Position numbers and translations under genes: made by a program. 64,000 nucleotides of DNA. It comes from Sneathiella glossodoripedis JCM 23214 (GTDB lineage: Bacteria > Pseudomonadota > Alphaproteobacteria > Sneathiellales > Sneathiellaceae). Positions 13,131 through 27,779 of this stretch are shown here, piece by piece (positions within the stretch are counted from its first letter, which is position 1; every line of letters starts with the position of its first letter). The notes under the pieces were generated by a model, which saw only the letters and a list, made by a program, of their open reading frames with translations, was not told the DNA's origin and made no database searches. The stretch is taken from assembly GCF_000616095.1 (NCBI RefSeq), contig NZ_BAMS01000005.1:62001-126000 (forward strand). The letters run 5' to 3'.

Positions 13131-13174
13131 AAAGATCGACGAAAGAGACCATCAAATGCTTGGGAGGGCAGAAT

Positions 13175-14278
13175 ATGGCACAACATATAACACATGATCC
13201 TATCTATAATGCCGTAAAGCCGGACGACTTCGCTGCAATGCTCGACTCTGAGCGCTATGGAAACCGCACTGATGCATTCGATGGTATCATTTCGGCGACC
13301 CACGACCATTTCTGGGACCCTCTGGATGAAGCATATCTGGATTTCAACACTCCTTTTGATACGGAGACCCAACTCATTATGCCACGGGAAACCATTCCCG
13401 AACTGCAAAGTGCTGTTGTCGACAAACTGGATGAAAGACAACAAATCAAGCTAGGTAACGAGAGTGTCCGCTGGGGTATTTCAGGCATATTGCATGGTGA
13501 ACAGGGTGCTTTGTCATTAAGTGCGAGCCTTTGCCACATTCTACTTGATCCCGGAGCACAAGAATACGCGTCCAATCAAACTCGCGAAGAAGCCCGTCAT
13601 GTCACAGCATACAGCCGCTACATACAGGTTCGCTTTGGAAGCCCCTACCCTGTTGGAGAGCAGCTGGGCGATCTTCTAAAAGAGCTTGTTGCAGCTGAGG
13701 AAGTGTATAAAAAACTGGTTGGAATGCAGATGTTGGTCGAAGGGTTGGCCATGGGTGCATTTGCCAGCTTTCACTCCAAGACCAACGATCCGCTGTTGAA
13801 GCGCCTGACCCAACTGGTGATGACAGACGAAGCCTTCCACCATAAATTTGGTAAAATCTGGGCCGATAAAACGATCCCAAGCCTGACTGAAAAAGAGCAT
13901 AATATTGTCGAAGATTGGGCGGCAAGCTGCTTCGAAAAACTCTTGTTCAATCTAATGAATATCCGCCAGAAACGTGTCATTTATGAGCAATTTGGACTGG
14001 ATTGGGAATGGGTTCGCGATGCCTGCCGTGAAGTGTTTACCGATGCAGACAGACGCAATTCACTCAAAGAATCTACTAATATATTCCGTGTACTTGTGAA
14101 AACCCTTCTGAAAGCAGGTATTATTACAGACCGGACGAGACCCCTCTATTCCCATTGGATGGATATGAACGAAATTGATAATGAAGGGGAAGATATGGTT
14201 GGATATGCCATCGCCGACGAAGGTATCGAATATCTTAAATCCATAAACCAAGGCAGAAAAGTTATCGGCCAAAAATAA
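13175..14278 (+). CDS. Ferritin-like diiron-domain protein of unknown substrate
   Basis: 367 residues, alpha-helical. Carboxylate-bridged diiron motifs are visible: Glu109 in HGEQGALS, E139xxH142 in REEARHVTAY, a later Glu in MLVEGLAMGAF and a second ExxH in MTDEAFHHKFG. This is the four-helix-bundle pattern of ferritin-like oxygenases and R2-like enzymes, and overall similarity is to uncharacterised diiron proteins rather than ribonucleotide reductase. A TTG at 13160 would extend the frame, but GGGAGG 7 bp before ATG 13175 decides the start. Monocistronic: own promoter region upstream and a strong terminator downstream. Confidence 0.75.
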   Translation: MAQHITHDPIYNAVKPDDFAAMLDSERYGNRTDAFDGIISATHDHFWDPLDEAYLDFNTPFDTETQLIMPRETIPELQSAVVDKLDERQQIKLGNESVRWGISGILHGEQGALSLSASLCHILLDPGAQEYASNQTREEARHVTAYSRYIQVRFGSPYPVGEQLGDLLKELVAAEEVYKKLVGMQMLVEGLAMGAFASFHSKTNDPLLKRLTQLVMTDEAFHHKFGKIWADKTIPSLTEKEHNIVEDWAASCFEKLLFNLMNIRQKRVIYEQFGLDWEWVRDACREVFTDADRRNSLKESTNIFRVLVKTLLKAGIITDRTRPLYSHWMDMNEIDNEGEDMVGYAIADEGIEYLKSINQGRKVIGQK

Positions 14279-19709: not shown

Positions 19710-20570
19710 CTAAAGGCGATTTAACGGTATCTTCAAATAGGAAACTCCATTGTCTTCTGGCGCTGGCAAATCTCCCGCCCGCATATTCACTTGAACAGAC
19801 GGCAAGATCAAAACCGGCATTTGCAAGCCGGCATCACGAGCATTTCGCATTTCCACGAACTCCCCTTCACTAACCCCGTCATGAATGTGAATATTTGTTG
19901 ATAGCTGCTCTGCAACTGTGGTTTCCCATTTATAGTCGCGCCCATCGGGAGCGTAGTCGTGACACATAAACAGGCGCGTCTCTTTTGGTAGGGACAGAAT
20001 TTTTTTTATTGAACGATAAAGCTGGGCCGCATCCCCACCCGGAAAGTCACATCGAGCTGTTCCATAGTCAGGCATAAAAAGCGTATCGCCTACGAAGACA
20101 GCATCTTCAATTTTATAACTCACACATGCAGGGGTGTGACCTGGCGTGTGCATCACCGAAATCATGAATTGTCCAAGCGGCAACTCAAACCCGTCTTTCA
20201 GCAACTTATCAAACTGCGAGCCATCCGCAGGCATCTCATCCGCCGCATTAAAGACATCCTGAAAAACTTCCTGCACCTGACATACATGTTCGCCAACCCC
20301 AATCAAGCCACCCAACCTACTCTTTAAATAAGGTGCGGCTGACAGGTGATCTGCGTGAACATGGGTCTCCAGTATCCAATCAACCCGCAAGTCATGACTT
20401 GCAACATATGCGCAAATTTCATCTGCTGTAGAAGTATCTGTACGGCCTGATTTATGATCATAATCCAAAACGCTGTCTATTATTGCGGAGCGGCCGGACT
20501 GAGTGTCGGAGACAACATATGAGACCGTAAATGTCGGCTCATGAAAGAAGGGCTTGATTTCAACTGTCAT
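19710..20570 (-). CDS. blh: Metallo-beta-lactamase fold persulfide dioxygenase-like hydrolase (Blh type)
   Basis: 286 residues. The metal motif THVHADH, a later His in HTPGHTPAC, GDTLF with the bridging Asp, and a final His in MCHDYAP match the ETHE1/Blh group of the fold. These enzymes oxidise glutathione persulfide to sulfite. It diverges from a BigR-type regulator with 65 bp between starts, which is the classic bigR-blh arrangement for sulfide detoxification. No rhodanese domain is fused. The dioxygenase activity is inferred from family and context. Confidence 0.85.
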   Translation of the reverse strand: MTVEIKPFFHEPTFTVSYVVSDTQSGRSAIIDSVLDYDHKSGRTDTSTADEICAYVASHDLRVDWILETHVHADHLSAAPYLKSRLGGLIGVGEHVCQVQEVFQDVFNAADEMPADGSQFDKLLKDGFELPLGQFMISVMHTPGHTPACVSYKIEDAVFVGDTLFMPDYGTARCDFPGGDAAQLYRSIKKILSLPKETRLFMCHDYAPDGRDYKWETTVAEQLSTNIHIHDGVSEGEFVEMRNARDAGLQMPVLILPSVQVNMRAGDLPAPEDNGVSYLKIPLNRL

Positions 20571-20599
20571 AGGTTTTCTCTCGATTATTCAATTTACTC

Positions 20600-20635
20600 T
20601 TGACTATATATCTGTATATTTGTAGATATTCAAGT
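20600..20635 (+). promoter_or_regulatory. bigR promoter with overlapping inverted-repeat operator
   Basis: TTGACT (20600-20605) and TAGATA (20623-20628) are spaced by 17 bp. Inverted repeat ATATCT-N10-AGATAT (20608-20629) covers the spacer and the -10 box, so a bound repressor would block RNA polymerase. The predicted transcription start falls at or next to the ATG at 20636, hinting at a leaderless message. The same operator could shut the divergent blh gene. Confidence 0.6.
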
Positions 20636-20935
20636 ATGAATATAAATGACATGAAAAAATCGGCTGCTCGCGCCAGCACTCTTATGAAAGCATTATCCAG
20701 TGAAACACGGCTTATGCTTTTGTGTCAGATGAATGATGGCGAAAAATCAGTCAATGAACTGGCGCAAACTCTGGAAATGCGCCCCTCTTCCGTTTCACAA
20801 CAACTTGCACTTCTTCGAAAAGATGGACTTGTTGAAACCCGACGCGAAGGGCAAACCATATACTACTCCCTTTGCGGTAATGAAGCACGCAACGTCATTG
20901 GCACCCTGTATGATCTCTACTGCGGGGATCAGTAA
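20636..20935 (+). CDS. bigR: ArsR-family persulfide sensor, BigR/SqrR type
   Basis: 99 residues with a winged-helix fold; the recognition helix is RPSSVSQQLALLRKDGLV. Cys30 and Cys96 are 66 residues apart, the same spacing as the redox pair of BigR (42/108) and SqrR (41/107), which form a tetrasulfide link with persulfides and release DNA. A third Cys (Cys80) is extra. ATG 20636 is chosen on similarity; no Shine-Dalgarno is seen before it, and a second Met codon is at 20651. It heads an operon with sulP and the two YedE-like genes and diverges from blh. Confidence 0.87.
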   Translation: MNINDMKKSAARASTLMKALSSETRLMLLCQMNDGEKSVNELAQTLEMRPSSVSQQLALLRKDGLVETRREGQTIYYSLCGNEARNVIGTLYDLYCGDQ

Positions 20936-20940
20936 GTTTC

Positions 20941-22695
20941 ATGTCCTTCAGCACAGTCTTTCCCGCAGCAAAATGGCTGTCCACCTATAACAAATCCTTA
21001 TTTAGCGGTGATCTAATCGCTGGGATCATCACAGCCATATTGCTTATTCCCCAAGCAATGGCCTATTCAGCACTTGCAGGCCTGCCGCCTCAAATTGGTC
21101 TTTATGCCAGTATTGCTGCGCCTATCATGTACGCCTTATTTGGTAGCAGCAGAACACTTGCCGTCGGCCCCGTTGCCGTCGCCTCCTTAATGGTGGCCTA
21201 TGCACTTGGATCAATAGCTGAGCAAGGCACAGCCTCTTATTTGGAAGCTGCAATACTGCTATCCTTCATGGTCGGTATCTGTTTCATTGGAATTGCGATA
21301 TTGCGGTTGGGGGTACTTACAGAATTTCTAAGCCATCCTGTCATGGCTGGATTTACCAGTGCAGCTGCCATCATGATTGCTTTCAGTCAATTAACACCGT
21401 TTGCCGGATTTGACGAAAAGCTCTTATTCGCCGATTTGTTAAGTATAGGGTCGCTGATCTCCATTCCTGGCAGGATAAACGATTTAACCTTGGTTTTAGG
21501 CATTGTATGCCTCTGCGGACTTTATTTAATTAGAAAACATTTCGCTAAATTCCTTGAAAAACTACCGATATCAACCTCTCTTGCTACAGGGATCGCAAAA
21601 ACCGGCCCCCTTATTGTCCTGGTTTTCTCCTCTTTAGCAATTTGGATATTTGACATGAACAGCACCTATGATGTTGCTGTAATTGGTCACATACCAGCGG
21701 GTTTGCCAGAACTCTCCGTCTCTTCATTTAACTGGTCGCTAGTTCAGGAATTAGCCCCCTCAGCCATTCTGATAACAATTGTCAGCTTTATTGAAAGCGT
21801 TGCAATTGCCAAAGTTCTGGCCAGTAAAAGGCGGGAAAGATTAAACATAACCCAAGAAGCCTGGGGATTGGGCTTTGCAAATATTGGCAGCGGTTTCACA
21901 GGAGCAAGTCCCGTCTGCGGTGGCTTTAGCAGATCTGTTGTCAATTTCTCTGCCGGCGCCAATACACAATTGGCGGCCATTATTACCGCGTTAATTATCG
22001 GAGCAACGCTAACCTTCTTCACGCCGCTCTTTTACAATGTTCCCAAGACTGTCCTTGCAGCAATAATTCTAATCGCAATTTTGGAACTGGTAGATCTAAA
22101 AGGGTTCTTGAAGAATTTACGCTATGACCGTGCTGACGGCGTGGCTGAAGCGACTACTTTCCTGTGCGTGCTGTTCTTTGGAATTGAAACCGGCCTACTC
22201 GCCGGTATCGGCATATCGCTCACATTGCACTTCTGGCGCTCCAGCAGACCTCATATTGCTATTGTTGGTCAGGTAGGAGACAGCGAGCATTTTAGAAATG
22301 TCAAACGGCACAAAGTAAAAACTTATCCCCATCTTCTAGCTATCCGTATTGACGAAAGTCTGTTTTTCGCAAATGCGGGTTATTTGGAAACTTATATTCT
22401 TAACGAAGTCGCCAATAAGCCTGAGCTTAGTGACATTCTCCTAATCTGTAGCGCTGTCAACGCCATTGACGCCAGCGCTCTGCACACACTTGAACAGCTC
22501 AAGAGCGAACTTGATGACAGTTCTGTAGCTTTGCATTTTGCTGAAATAAAAGGCCCTGTTATGGATCGATTGCAAGCAACCAGTCTATTCAGCTCCCAAA
22601 ATCCTCCGCAGGTTTTTCTCAGCACTCATCAAGCATTCAAGGAAATTTCCGCCAAGGGAAATCCGCTTTTAAATGATCCGGAATGGAGTATCTAA
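20941..22695 (+). CDS. SulP family anion transporter with STAS domain
   Basis: 584 residues. The first 430 or so hold about 12 membrane segments, with the SulP signature region around MAYSALAGLPPQIGLYAS. The C-terminal STAS domain is about residues 450-560 (LAIRIDESLFFANAGYLE, AVNAIDASALHTLEQL). SulP proteins carry sulfate, bicarbonate or other anions. Its start is 5 bp after the bigR stop and its own stop abuts the next ATG, so it belongs to the sulfide-response operon. There it may export sulfite/sulfate made by Blh, a role held by TauE-type exporters in other bigR clusters (inference). Confidence 0.9.
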   Translation: MSFSTVFPAAKWLSTYNKSLFSGDLIAGIITAILLIPQAMAYSALAGLPPQIGLYASIAAPIMYALFGSSRTLAVGPVAVASLMVAYALGSIAEQGTASYLEAAILLSFMVGICFIGIAILRLGVLTEFLSHPVMAGFTSAAAIMIAFSQLTPFAGFDEKLLFADLLSIGSLISIPGRINDLTLVLGIVCLCGLYLIRKHFAKFLEKLPISTSLATGIAKTGPLIVLVFSSLAIWIFDMNSTYDVAVIGHIPAGLPELSVSSFNWSLVQELAPSAILITIVSFIESVAIAKVLASKRRERLNITQEAWGLGFANIGSGFTGASPVCGGFSRSVVNFSAGANTQLAAIITALIIGATLTFFTPLFYNVPKTVLAAIILIAILELVDLKGFLKNLRYDRADGVAEATTFLCVLFFGIETGLLAGIGISLTLHFWRSSRPHIAIVGQVGDSEHFRNVKRHKVKTYPHLLAIRIDESLFFANAGYLETYILNEVANKPELSDILLICSAVNAIDASALHTLEQLKSELDDSSVALHFAEIKGPVMDRLQATSLFSSQNPPQVFLSTHQAFKEISAKGNPLLNDPEWSI

Positions 22696-23139
22696 ATGGA
22701 AAACTTTACCCCTTTCACTTCTTTGTCCGGGGGTATTATCCTCGGCATTTCAGCGACCCTTCTCCTGATGAGTGGCCGAATAGCAGGAATTAGCGGCATT
22801 TTAGGAGGCCTTATCCCTCCAGCCTCTGATGATAAAAGCTGGAGAGTACTTTTCCTGATAGGTCTCGTCACGGGTGCTGCCTTATTCCCACTAGTTGGCG
22901 GCGACACCGATTACATAGATGTGAACCCTTATAATTTCGAAGAGAGCATTCACTATGGCATTCTGGTACTGGCCGGATTGCTCGTTGGCGCTGGGACAAA
23001 CATTGGTGCTGGATGTACCAGTGGTCATGGAATTTGCGGGTTAGGAAGGTTATCGGCGAGATCACTTGTCGCAACATTGAGCTTTATGGCAAGCGCGATA
23101 ATCGTTGTTTTCGTTATCCGTCAAATCACAGGAGGCTAA
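22696..23139 (+). CDS. YeeE/YedE family half-transporter (PmpA-like)
   Basis: 147 residues with four or five membrane segments. The family's Cys motif is GAGCTSGHGICG followed by RLSARSLVATLSFM. The YeeE/YedE fold moves thiosulfate or persulfide-like sulfur species through the inner membrane via conserved Cys residues; half-size pairs are known as PmpA/PmpB. The ATG directly follows the sulP stop (zero spacing). Confidence 0.87.
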   Translation: MENFTPFTSLSGGIILGISATLLLMSGRIAGISGILGGLIPPASDDKSWRVLFLIGLVTGAALFPLVGGDTDYIDVNPYNFEESIHYGILVLAGLLVGAGTNIGAGCTSGHGICGLGRLSARSLVATLSFMASAIIVVFVIRQITGG

Positions 23140-23140
23140 G

Positions 23141-23575
23141 ATGACAAAAGTAATTGCTATTGTATCAGGCATTTTATTCGGATATGGGCTCGCGCTATCA
23201 GGAATGTTAAGCCCGGCTAAGGTGATCGGATTTTTAGATCTGACAGGTGACTGGGACCCAAGTCTGGCCTTCGTCATGGGGGGTGGCCTGATTGTGACCG
23301 TTATTTCCTTTAGACTCCTTTTACGGCTTCCTCACCCACTTTTTGGTGATAAGTTTCAGGTCCCAAACCGCACCGATCTGGATAAAAGGTTGATCGCTGG
23401 ATCAGCCACTTTTGGAATAGGCTGGGCACTTGGAGGACTGTGTCCGGGGCCAGCGATTAGCTCCCTCGCTTATGCAGATCCCCGAATTTTTATCTTCTTC
23501 GCATCAATGGTTGCGGGTATTTGGCTCGCCAAAACGCTACTCCCTCAACGGGCGCAAAGTGCAGTCGCCAACTGA
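23141..23575 (+). CDS. YeeE/YedE family half-transporter (PmpB-like, DUF6691)
   Basis: 144 residues, about four membrane segments, with LFGYGLALSGMLSPAKVIGFLD at the start and the Cys motif GGLCPGPAI. It complements the preceding half-protein to make the full YeeE-type fold. AGGAGG stands 5 bp before ATG 23141, which decides that start over the open frame further upstream. Its 3' end overlaps the convergent psuG gene by 31 bp. Confidence 0.87.
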   Translation: MTKVIAIVSGILFGYGLALSGMLSPAKVIGFLDLTGDWDPSLAFVMGGGLIVTVISFRLLLRLPHPLFGDKFQVPNRTDLDKRLIAGSATFGIGWALGGLCPGPAISSLAYADPRIFIFFASMVAGIWLAKTLLPQRAQSAVAN

Positions 23576-24456: not shown

Positions 24457-24624
24457 CGCTTAAATTCCCGTCTCTATCTCATATAGTATTTGTATTGGCT
24501 GGCAATCACCTAGCGTCCGCTTGACACAAGATCAAGTAAAAGATTTTGTTTTCGTTGCACTTTTCCGAAAATAGAGATTAAGGTTAACCTCAACAAATTA
24601 ATGAAAAAAGAAAAGGAGTGTATA

Positions 24625-25392
24625 ATGAGTTCCCCCAGAAAAGTTGCCATCGTTACCGGATCTGCCACAGGCACCGGTGCTGCAATTGCAATTGCATTGG
24701 CCAAAAAAGATTATAACGTACTCATAAATTACACAAAAAGCGAAACCGAAGCTCGTGAAACTGCAAAAGCGGTTGAGGCTGAAGGGGTAGAGGTCCTCGT
24801 CTTTCAGGGTGACGTATCCAGAGATGAAGACTGCCAAAATATGGCCACCGCTGCCATGGACAAATGGGGGCGAATCGACGCCCTTGTAAATAATGCGGGA
24901 CGAACGAAATTTGTCTCCCACGAAGATTTGGAAGGTCTGGATGCAAAAGACTTTCACGACATCTATGCAGTCAACACAATAGGTCCCTTTCAAATGACAA
25001 GGGCCTGCGCGCCACACCTTAAAAATAGTGGTCGTGGGCGTGTGGTCATGATTTCATCTGTCGCTGGCACGCATGGGCATGGCTCATCCATCGCGTATGT
25101 CGCCTCAAAAGGGGGCTTAAACTCCATGACCAAAGCACTTGCACGTGCTTTAGGCCCAGAAATCACAGTAAATGCGGTGTGCCCAGGTATGATCGAAACA
25201 AGATGGCTGCGTGAAGGGTGGGGCGATGAAAACTATGATCGGAATAAACAGGCAATGACGAAAAAGGTCCCGTTGGCCAAGGTTTCGCAGCCAGAAGATA
25301 TCGCAGACGCTGTTGTGTGGTTCATTGAAGGCGCCAATGTCGTAACCGGAGAGTTGCTTATGGTTGATGGCGGAATGCACTTGGTCAGCTAA
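24625..25392 (+). CDS. SDR family oxidoreductase
   Basis: 255 residues. Classical short-chain dehydrogenase: cofactor loop TGSATGTG, NNAG, catalytic Ser in MISSVAG and YVASK (Tyr-x3-Lys), ending in VDGGMH. This is the FabG-like subgroup with an NAD(P)H-dependent carbonyl reductase or alcohol dehydrogenase activity; the substrate is unknown. An ATG at 24601 is in frame, but AAGGAG ahead of ATG 24625 fixes the start. It stands alone between psuG (divergent) and a long inverted repeat. Confidence 0.88.
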   Translation: MSSPRKVAIVTGSATGTGAAIAIALAKKDYNVLINYTKSETEARETAKAVEAEGVEVLVFQGDVSRDEDCQNMATAAMDKWGRIDALVNNAGRTKFVSHEDLEGLDAKDFHDIYAVNTIGPFQMTRACAPHLKNSGRGRVVMISSVAGTHGHGSSIAYVASKGGLNSMTKALARALGPEITVNAVCPGMIETRWLREGWGDENYDRNKQAMTKKVPLAKVSQPEDIADAVVWFIEGANVVTGELLMVDGGMHLVS

Positions 25393-25399
25393 AACGATT

Positions 25400-25445
25400 T
25401 GAGACCATACTTATTGTTTGAAATAAAACATCATAGATGGTCTCA
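25400..25445. repeat. Inverted repeat with 9-bp perfect arms after the SDR gene
   Basis: TGAGACCAT (25400-25408) and ATGGTCTCA (25437-25445) flank 28 bp of AT-rich DNA, 8 bp after the SDR stop. The loop is long for an intrinsic terminator and the following bases are only weakly T-rich (CTTTACTT). It may still act as one, or be a regulatory dyad. Confidence 0.5.
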
Positions 25446-25585: not shown

Positions 25586-26005
25586 ATGGCGAATGAAAAC
25601 GGTACAAATTTTGCTGCGAATAATAATAGTACTTCCAACAATAAACGCCTTTTAATTGTGGATGACGAAAGGGAATTTGGTGACTTTGTAAAAACTGTTG
25701 CAGAAGGCATGGACTACGAAGTGACTGTCACAGAGAAGGCATCAGACTTTCAACGATCCTATAATGAAACGACACCATCTGTTATCATTCTTGATATGGT
25801 AATGCCCGGTGTAGACGGCGTAGAGCTAATAAACTGGTTGGCGCAGGAAAAATGCACCGCCAAAATTATTGTGGTGACTGGATTTAACCCACGCTATATT
25901 GAACTTGCCGAAGACCTTGGGGGAGCAAAAGGTCTACCTGATATCTCTACCCTCACGAAACCCGTTGCCCTAGCAGATCTGAGGCAAGCCCTTTCTTATT
26001 CATGA
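25586..26005 (+). CDS. Single-domain response regulator
   Basis: 139 residues. An Asn/Thr-rich tail of about 20 residues precedes a receiver domain with D26-D27 in the acidic pocket, phospho-acceptor D70 (VIILDMVMPG), switch Thr98 and Lys125. There is no output domain, so it acts by protein contact or as a phosphate shuttle. No histidine kinase is nearby. Its stop overlaps the start of the next gene (ATGA), which strongly links it to the cyclotransferase-like protein. Confidence 0.9.
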   Translation: MANENGTNFAANNNSTSNNKRLLIVDDEREFGDFVKTVAEGMDYEVTVTEKASDFQRSYNETTPSVIILDMVMPGVDGVELINWLAQEKCTAKIIVVTGFNPRYIELAEDLGGAKGLPDISTLTKPVALADLRQALSYS

Positions 26006-26730
26006 GTACTTCCCTTCAGCTTGCGCTGGACTACCCTTACGAGCGACCGTCTTATTCTTACACATTGCATAATGGGGTTATTAATCATGGCGTTCCTCTA
26101 CATGAAATTAAAGACCGCATCCCGGTAATTGCCAGCGGCTCAAACGCCGCGCCCGCCCAGTTACTCAGAAAATTTTCAAACAACCCTAGCCCCATATACG
26201 TAACACGCGCAACCTTGGGCGATTTTACCTCAGTATATTCTGCCCACTTTACTTCTTATGGCTCTGTTCCCGCTACTCTGGCGTACAAACCAGGCATCAA
26301 AACTCTTTGTCATATTACCTGGCTCACAGAAGATCATCTTACTGCAATGCATGAGACAGAAGCTTTGGGGATTAACTACCGATATTCTATCTTGCGGTCG
26401 CTTAACCTCGAGTGCAGCGTGGCCGGCCCTCTGAAATCTGCAGGGGCTTATATCAGCTTGCATGGCGGACTATGTTATGATGGCGCAATGCTAGGACTAT
26501 CTGAGTTCCTGCCGGAAATACAGAAAGTTAATATCAACTGGCTCGACCAATCGGCTCTGCAACTGTTACTGCTGGAGATACTTCAAGTGAATATTCCACT
26601 TGAAGATTTCATTGTTGAAAATATAAGTAACTCTCAAGTTCGCAAGCAACGCACGCAAAAACTAAAACAAATAGCGATCGCGTTCGACTACCCAAATGAA
26701 GATATCATTCTGGATCATCCATTGGGTTGA
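26002..26730 (+). CDS. Unknown protein with gamma-glutamylcyclotransferase-like start motif
   Basis: 242 residues, no signal peptide. A segment VIASGSNAAPAQLLRKF near residue 43 resembles the YGSN substrate loop of gamma-glutamylcyclotransferase-like folds, and a Glu in HETEAL might be the general acid. The rest is not recognised. The ATG overlaps the stop of the receiver gene by four bases, so the two are cotranslated. I would call it hypothetical with a tentative fold assignment. Confidence 0.55.
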   Translation: MSTSLQLALDYPYERPSYSYTLHNGVINHGVPLHEIKDRIPVIASGSNAAPAQLLRKFSNNPSPIYVTRATLGDFTSVYSAHFTSYGSVPATLAYKPGIKTLCHITWLTEDHLTAMHETEALGINYRYSILRSLNLECSVAGPLKSAGAYISLHGGLCYDGAMLGLSEFLPEIQKVNINWLDQSALQLLLLEILQVNIPLEDFIVENISNSQVRKQRTQKLKQIAIAFDYPNEDIILDHPLG

Positions 26731-26747: not shown

Positions 26748-27779
26748 ATGACCGCAACTTTTAAGGCCTTATTCATCGGCTCGATTGGCGGTGGGTTATT
26801 CTTTCTTGCGGACTTGCCATTGGCCTGGATGATGGGATCCATGTGCATTACGACTGTACTTGCCGTTCGCGGAGCTGAACTAGCTGTTAATGCAACCTTG
26901 CGCAAAATCATGACAGCTGTACTTGGTGTCATGTTGGGATCCAGTTTTAGTAGCGAAACCATCGATCAACTCTCAACATGGAGCGGAGGATTAATTCTGC
27001 TGGCCATTTGCGTCATTCTATCAATGACAATGGTATATTTTTACTTCCGAAAGATCGGCCATTTTGACAGGGCAACAGCCTATTTTTCCGCGGCCCCCGG
27101 CGGCTTTAACGTCATGTATGAGGTCGGAGAGGCGAAAGGGGGGGATGGACGAACAATTGCGTTGATACACGCAACCAGAATTTTGCTTCTCGTCATGACA
27201 GTTCCCTTGGCGTTCCGATTTGCCATTTCACTCCCGGCGACAGATCAATCAATCCCCTTGCTTGGTAATATTCAATATATGGAAAACTATGGACTTTTAC
27301 TGGTTGCTGGTATTTTTGGGTATTTTGCAGGAGGTTTGCTTCGCTTTCCGGCATATCACTTGATGGGCCCAATGCTGATTGCCGGAGTACTGTCGATCAC
27401 TGGAGTTGTCGAGGTTATGCCGCCAATGCTTTTGATATATTTGGCGCAACTCGTAATTGGTACAGCTATTGGTCTGCGTTTTCTGGGGACAACAGTTTAC
27501 GAAATTCGCCGTGTTATACTGCTGAGTTGCGGGTCAACGTCTATAATGATTCTTCTGGCATGCGGACTTTCGTTTATTGCATCCGACCTCGTCCAAATCA
27601 GCATACAGGGACTAATTTTGGCTCTCTCTCCAGGTGGATTAGCAGAGATGTCTCTCGTTGCGTTGGGTCTAGGCATTGATGTTGCATTTGTTTCTATCAT
27701 GCACGTAATACGGATCGCATTTGTGATAGCGTGTATTCCGTTTGCATTTTCTTTTTTCGAAAAAATTAGACGGAAGTAA
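26748..27779 (+). CDS. AbrB family membrane protein
   Basis: 343 residues, about ten membrane helices in two homologous halves, each with the AbrB duplication pattern (DLPLAWMMGSMCITTVLAV in the first, FPAYHLMGPMLIAGVLSITG in the second, plus AAPGGFNVMYEVGE and ALSPGGLAEMSLVALGLG). Members are inner-membrane proteins of uncertain transport function (some named ammonia monooxygenase regulators by old annotation). AAAGGAC precedes ATG 26748; a TTG at 26727 is in frame but less likely. Its end overlaps the convergent MATE gene by 14 bp. Confidence 0.85.
   Translation: MTATFKALFIGSIGGGLFFLADLPLAWMMGSMCITTVLAVRGAELAVNATLRKIMTAVLGVMLGSSFSSETIDQLSTWSGGLILLAICVILSMTMVYFYFRKIGHFDRATAYFSAAPGGFNVMYEVGEAKGGDGRTIALIHATRILLLVMTVPLAFRFAISLPATDQSIPLLGNIQYMENYGLLLVAGIFGYFAGGLLRFPAYHLMGPMLIAGVLSITGVVEVMPPMLLIYLAQLVIGTAIGLRFLGTTVYEIRRVILLSCGSTSIMILLACGLSFIASDLVQISIQGLILALSPGGLAEMSLVALGLGIDVAFVSIMHVIRIAFVIACIPFAFSFFEKIRRK

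Follow-up and report, generated by a model that had tools for sequence, protein, structure and literature searches.

The receiver and the 242-residue protein encoded by two overlapping genes of Sneathiella glossodoripedis are best explained jointly as a branch-specific receiver duplicate beside an enzyme with the gamma-glutamylcyclotransferase (GGCT) fold, with the main partner of the receiver more likely to be found elsewhere. We assign this joint reading a probability of about 60%. Both genes lie on the forward strand of the window, the whole 64,000-nucleotide stretch of DNA that was analysed (C8:62001-126000 of a 3.6 Mb genome). What is new is the uncatalogued GGCT-fold family and its position behind signalling genes. 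Lone receivers thought to work through contact are themselves not new and are described as a known kind in PMC5964349. Among open-licence papers, we found none on the GGCT-fold family or its placement beside signalling genes, and none joining cyclotransferase with Sneathiella or glutamylcyclotransferase with HD-GYP. A family whose profile matches 56 of the 289 alphaproteobacterial genomes sampled (with the window's own counted; four of the 56 belong to its genus) becomes open to chemical testing through its predicted fold and its likely active site. If placement behind signalling genes reflects control, small-molecule turnover would be tied directly to two-component or c-di-GMP signalling.

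The GGCT-fold protein and its active site

The second of the two genes (26002 to 26730, forward strand) encodes the 242-residue protein, which had been described as unrecognised and cyclotransferase-like. Pfam, NCBIfam and PHROGs indeed all failed to recognise it, with nothing credible returned (best E value in PHROGs 0.11), and neither the protein nor its family profiles retrieved a credible chain from PDB sequences. As far as sequence searches reach, the protein belongs to a family that is absent from the catalogues searched. Neither PF06094 (GGACT) nor PF13772 (AIG2_2) matched it at the curated Pfam cut-offs, and PF13772 had no match at E 0.001 in the whole genome. Five PDB sequence matches of the family profile (E 0.45-0.81) and Pfam matches in single family members (FerA, LcrR and others) were judged to be chance.

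Using AlphaFold2 and an alignment of 64 sequences (the window protein and 63 from the best 80 of 101 confirmed loci), a model with a mean pLDDT of 95.9 and a pTM of 0.91 was obtained. Its best Foldseek match was human GGCT (3cry, E 3.7e-5, probability 1.00), with a poor superposition for this top match (rmsd 12.4, TM 0.39/0.53). In VIA, the model and human GGCT gave a Z of 9.2 and an rmsd of 3.1-3.4 over 126-129 residues. Altogether 22 VIA entries had a Z above 5; 11 of them are titled GGCT, GGACT, AIG2-like or ChaC2/yeast GGCT, and several others (YkqA, YtfP, Arabidopsis AIG2 proteins) presumably share the same fold. Beneath these 22 entries Z falls from 5.2 to 3.1; that other families do not appear in the list carries no evidential weight. 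The predicted fold is in good agreement with the cyclotransferase-like label and is not an unrelated one. In the model, the window protein shares the fold of human GGCT (3cry, 2rbh, 2pn7) over approximately residues 37-209 while being only 13% identical to the human chains. The fold is also similar to that of GGACT/AIG2-like proteins (PF06094; 3jud, Z 7.1 to the model). However, PF06094 does not match the window protein and touches 7 of the 64 family sequences weakly (best E 3.3e-4), and nine GGACT-type proteins from the genus could not be aligned by the family profile.

When the family was compared, profile against profile, with ten proteins of PF13772 type, the alignment (E 1.4e-6, probability 90.5) paired the GSN at residues 46-48 with that of the YGSN loop, as the original prediction had anticipated, E120 with the Glu of the LDxxE motif, and Y126 and Y150 with tyrosines. 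Between the same ten proteins and human GGCT the match has an E value of 2.1e-31, and the LDxxE Glu is residue 98 of the human protein (counted by hand). Glu98 is the catalytic acid/base residue of human GGCT according to PMC7022552. Across the 64 family sequences G46, N48, E120, Y126 and Y150 are invariant and S47 is nearly so; the Gly-Ser of the YGS(L/N) loop is thus present as G46 and S47, and the acid/base Glu as E120. In contrast to human GGCT and the PF13772-type proteins, the window protein has Ser45 in place of the Tyr of this loop (most of the 20 order sequences have Cys there), a Pfam match is lacking, and the family has its own N-terminal motif with an invariant Y11-P12. Because the loop Tyr is missing and the GGACT-type comparison failed, we speak of a GGCT-fold relative rather than of a cyclotransferase, despite the match in fold and Glu. 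Judging from model and alignments, the protein is such a relative with an active site that is likely intact; it is neither a proven cyclotransferase nor a filed member. In the reaction we propose, a gamma-glutamyl compound would cyclise by attack of its amino group on the carbonyl of its own side chain; Glu120 would act as acid/base, the GSN loop would grip the glutamyl end, and 5-oxoproline would be released. The window's genome also carries a gene of gshA type.

The receiver and its genomic setting

The first gene (25586 to 26005, forward strand) encodes a stand-alone receiver of 139 residues whose PF00072 match (E 4.1e-17) exceeds the cut-off. The acidic pair D26 and D27 is present, and D70, T98 and K125 were read at exactly the positions claimed for them. 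The protein has the make-up of a single-domain response regulator (a lone PF00072 domain that has the acidic pair together with the Asp, the Thr/Ser and the Lys) and, judged by these residues, is phospho-competent. The lack of an output domain and of a nearby kinase was borne out: Pfam gave only PF00072 and a sub-cut-off cREC_REC match overlapping it, HisKA and HATPase_c had no match in the window, and no kinase domain was found by Pfam in the 44 window ORFs of 240 residues or longer. The genome has 53 HisKA matches, the nearest at C8:135823, approximately 48 kb from the receiver. CheY and DivK are further single-domain response regulators that we take to be comparable, and the window receiver differs from this class in sharing its locus with the genes of an enzyme-fold protein and of a membrane protein. 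Like MrrA and SdrG (PMC5964349), it consists of a lone PF00072 domain with all phospho-site residues, whereas it does not carry the PFxFATG(G/Y) motif given there for these FATGUY proteins.

As predicted, the two genes share a strand, and the receiver stop overlaps the GGCT-fold start in a 4-nt ATGA (26002 to 26005, forward strand). The third gene (26748 to 27779, forward strand) encodes an AbrB-type membrane protein. Upstream, a short-chain dehydrogenase gene (24601 to 25392, forward strand) is separated from the receiver by 193 nt. This gap holds an imperfect inverted repeat (25400 to 25445, forward strand) with two 20-nt arms that are 75% complementary, the outer 9 bp being perfect as read by eye. 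The terminator scan did not report the repeat, and the promoter/terminator scan gave fewer sites than were found in shuffles and thus carries no information. Together, repeat and gap suggest a separate transcription unit.

Elsewhere in the window, positions 19710-23575 encode a metallo-beta-lactamase fold protein and a SulP-type sulfate permease, along with what we take from the translations to be an ArsR-like and two YeeE/YedE-like genes. These genes resemble a persulfide/sulfide cluster. A 372-residue frame at 13160-14278 has no Pfam match at E 1e-5.

Distribution and origin of the pairing

In the phylum sample, the family profile matched 4 of 299 genomes, one of them the window's and the other three from the same class. 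Within the order, 20 of 25 genomes carry the GGCT-fold protein, the window's included, and three of the five genomes without a match are 56-70% complete. In related genomes the GGCT-fold protein is 39-49% identical to the window's, and the adjacent receivers are 60-76% identical. An AbrB-type gene is the constant neighbour, lying within 1.5 kb in all 20 carriers. In 8 of the 20, a receiver immediately precedes the GGCT-fold gene; among the 12 receiver-less carriers, the dehydrogenase is packed directly upstream of the gene in 11 and one has neither. Among wider loci (best 80 of 101, with flanks that never exceed 6 kb and are often shorter), 7 have a receiver next to the gene, a count on which tblastn and the receiver profile agree and which includes the identical sequences L042 and L043. 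The only other receiver-profile match in these loci is weak (E 5.7e-6) and lies in L093, within a long frame on the opposite strand. The original prediction of a coupled pair stood in part: fold, GSN loop and lack of a catalogue entry held, with the catalytic Glu aligned as well, whereas the co-occurrence survey found the pairing itself in just these minorities of order carriers and wider loci.

A tree of 79 rows was built from the best 80 of 101 loci minus six (L043, identical to L042, and L066, L070, L073, L102 and L119, with cut or odd frames) plus the window and four loci from the order search. All receiver-bearing rows fall in one Sneathiella branch, whose 11 rows comprise nine that have the receiver and two that lack it. 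The receiver label needs two changes on this tree. We interpret these as a single gain and a single loss, but counts cannot separate gain from loss; two independent gains are a possible alternative. The receiver/GGCT-fold pairing is narrow, being seen only in this one branch, and many Alphaproteobacteria make use of the family with no receiver beside its gene.

The operon receiver looks like a duplicate, judging from sequence similarity, because ten order genomes have, at other places, further stand-alone receivers that are 55-60% identical to it. Seven of these ten are among the eight genomes with the operon copy. The neighbours of the other receivers are unrelated and include what we take to be a dGTPase-like frame and a ribH-like frame, each in 9 of the 10 genomes. 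In case of the window's genome, the other receiver (L039, G000:C7:90324-90644) goes out of frame at the conserved Lys-Pro, giving a frame of 110 residues compared with at least 121 in nine relatives; this is either a real loss or a sequencing error.

Possible partners of the receiver and other neighbours

In the reading we prefer, a stand-alone receiver copy would have arrived upstream of the enzyme gene in one Sneathiella branch. Since the receiver lies upstream of both the enzyme and the AbrB-type gene, the three proteins are probably made together. Phosphate would reach the receiver from a kinase encoded elsewhere, and the receiver would work by binding some protein. A phosphorelay partner appears more likely in this role than the enzyme because the receiver evolves slowly and the enzyme fast: mean identities over 36 pairs of the nine receiver-bearing genomes are 68.6% for the receiver and 46.3% for the enzyme (AbrB 65.0%, dehydrogenase 80.0%). 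Slow receiver evolution may nevertheless be compatible with contact to the enzyme.

Such contact was at the heart of the original prediction, in which the receiver is a phospho-switch that binds the GGCT-fold enzyme according to its phosphorylation state and opens or shuts the pocket. Receiver and enzyme genes are tightly spaced in the nine receiver-bearing genomes, with a 4-nt overlap in two and a distance of 2-24 nt in six as measured from mechanically chosen gene starts (the enzyme start is TTG in three, and one has no ATG, GTG or TTG after the receiver stop). Phospho-site residues are retained in all nine, Ser replacing Thr98 in one. Both observations are in line with a switch, as is the separate adjacency of the family to GAF-HD-GYP genes described below. 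We nonetheless consider this reading rather doubtful, as no receiver adjoins the gene in 12 of the 20 order carriers or in 73 of the wider loci (best 80 of 101), and the two receiver-less rows inside the Sneathiella branch keep their dehydrogenase and AbrB neighbours. Receiver and enzyme share one frame in two loci, where stop read-through would give a natural joined chain. A model of the joined chain (pLDDT 90.4, pTM 0.72; 2 of 42 alignment rows hold both parts) has low confidence in the receiver alpha4 region and no firm docking is visible in it; as the tool gives no inter-domain error, the model speaks neither for nor against docking. Direct control stays a guess because most relatives were seen without a receiver partner. 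That the duplicate controls nothing here, is co-transcribed by coincidence and acts as a sink or shuttle for the phosphate of another pathway would fit the stand-alone relatives with unrelated neighbours and the 53 HisKA matches that could supply phosphate, but is very unlikely given that the receiver stays beside the gene across nine genomes diverged to a mean enzyme identity of 46.3%, even if the surrounding block is syntenic within the genus anyway.

Besides our preferred reading of a branch-specific duplicate, we keep the idea of control open because a GAF-HD-GYP gene precedes the GGCT-fold gene directly and on the same strand in 12 of the best 80 of 101 loci (L058, L060, L063, L065, L069, L071, L072, L073, L078, L081, L094 and L099), with gaps of -1 to +62 nt from mechanically chosen starts. 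GAF and HD domains were identified by Pfam in one member and the others were assigned through clustering. These loci fall outside the Sneathiella-type loci, and on the tree, which holds 11 of the 12, the HD-GYP label makes seven changes, at least five of them forced. Within the order, a GAF-HD-GYP homologue at E 1e-60 or better occurs in 1 of 25 genomes, at a different place. This adjacency hints at a broader signalling link. It is unlikely, in our estimate, that the family is under direct signal control throughout, by GAF-HD-GYP proteins in several lineages and by the receiver in the Sneathiella branch; if it were, turnover of gamma-glutamyl compounds, perhaps of glutathione, would be switched via phosphorylation or c-di-GMP signalling.

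Neighbour clusters in the best 80 of 101 loci, each named from one identified member, include gshA (31), UbiA (38), UbiD (32) and RsmE (26) types. A link to glutathione drawn from this neighbourhood was set aside as synteny, since the window's genome keeps its gshA block, with UbiA-like and RsmE-like frames beside gshA, without a GGCT-fold gene there. In L075, L088, L096, L098, L100 and L119, the gene immediately before the GGCT-fold gene belongs to the DUF4170 cluster. In several receiver-bearing genomes a PNPOx-type gene, absent from this place in the window, stands between the GGCT-fold gene and AbrB (for example L002 2220-2828 and L042 6723-7331). One genome has the GGCT-fold family in two adjacent copies (G053:C57:8171-10359).
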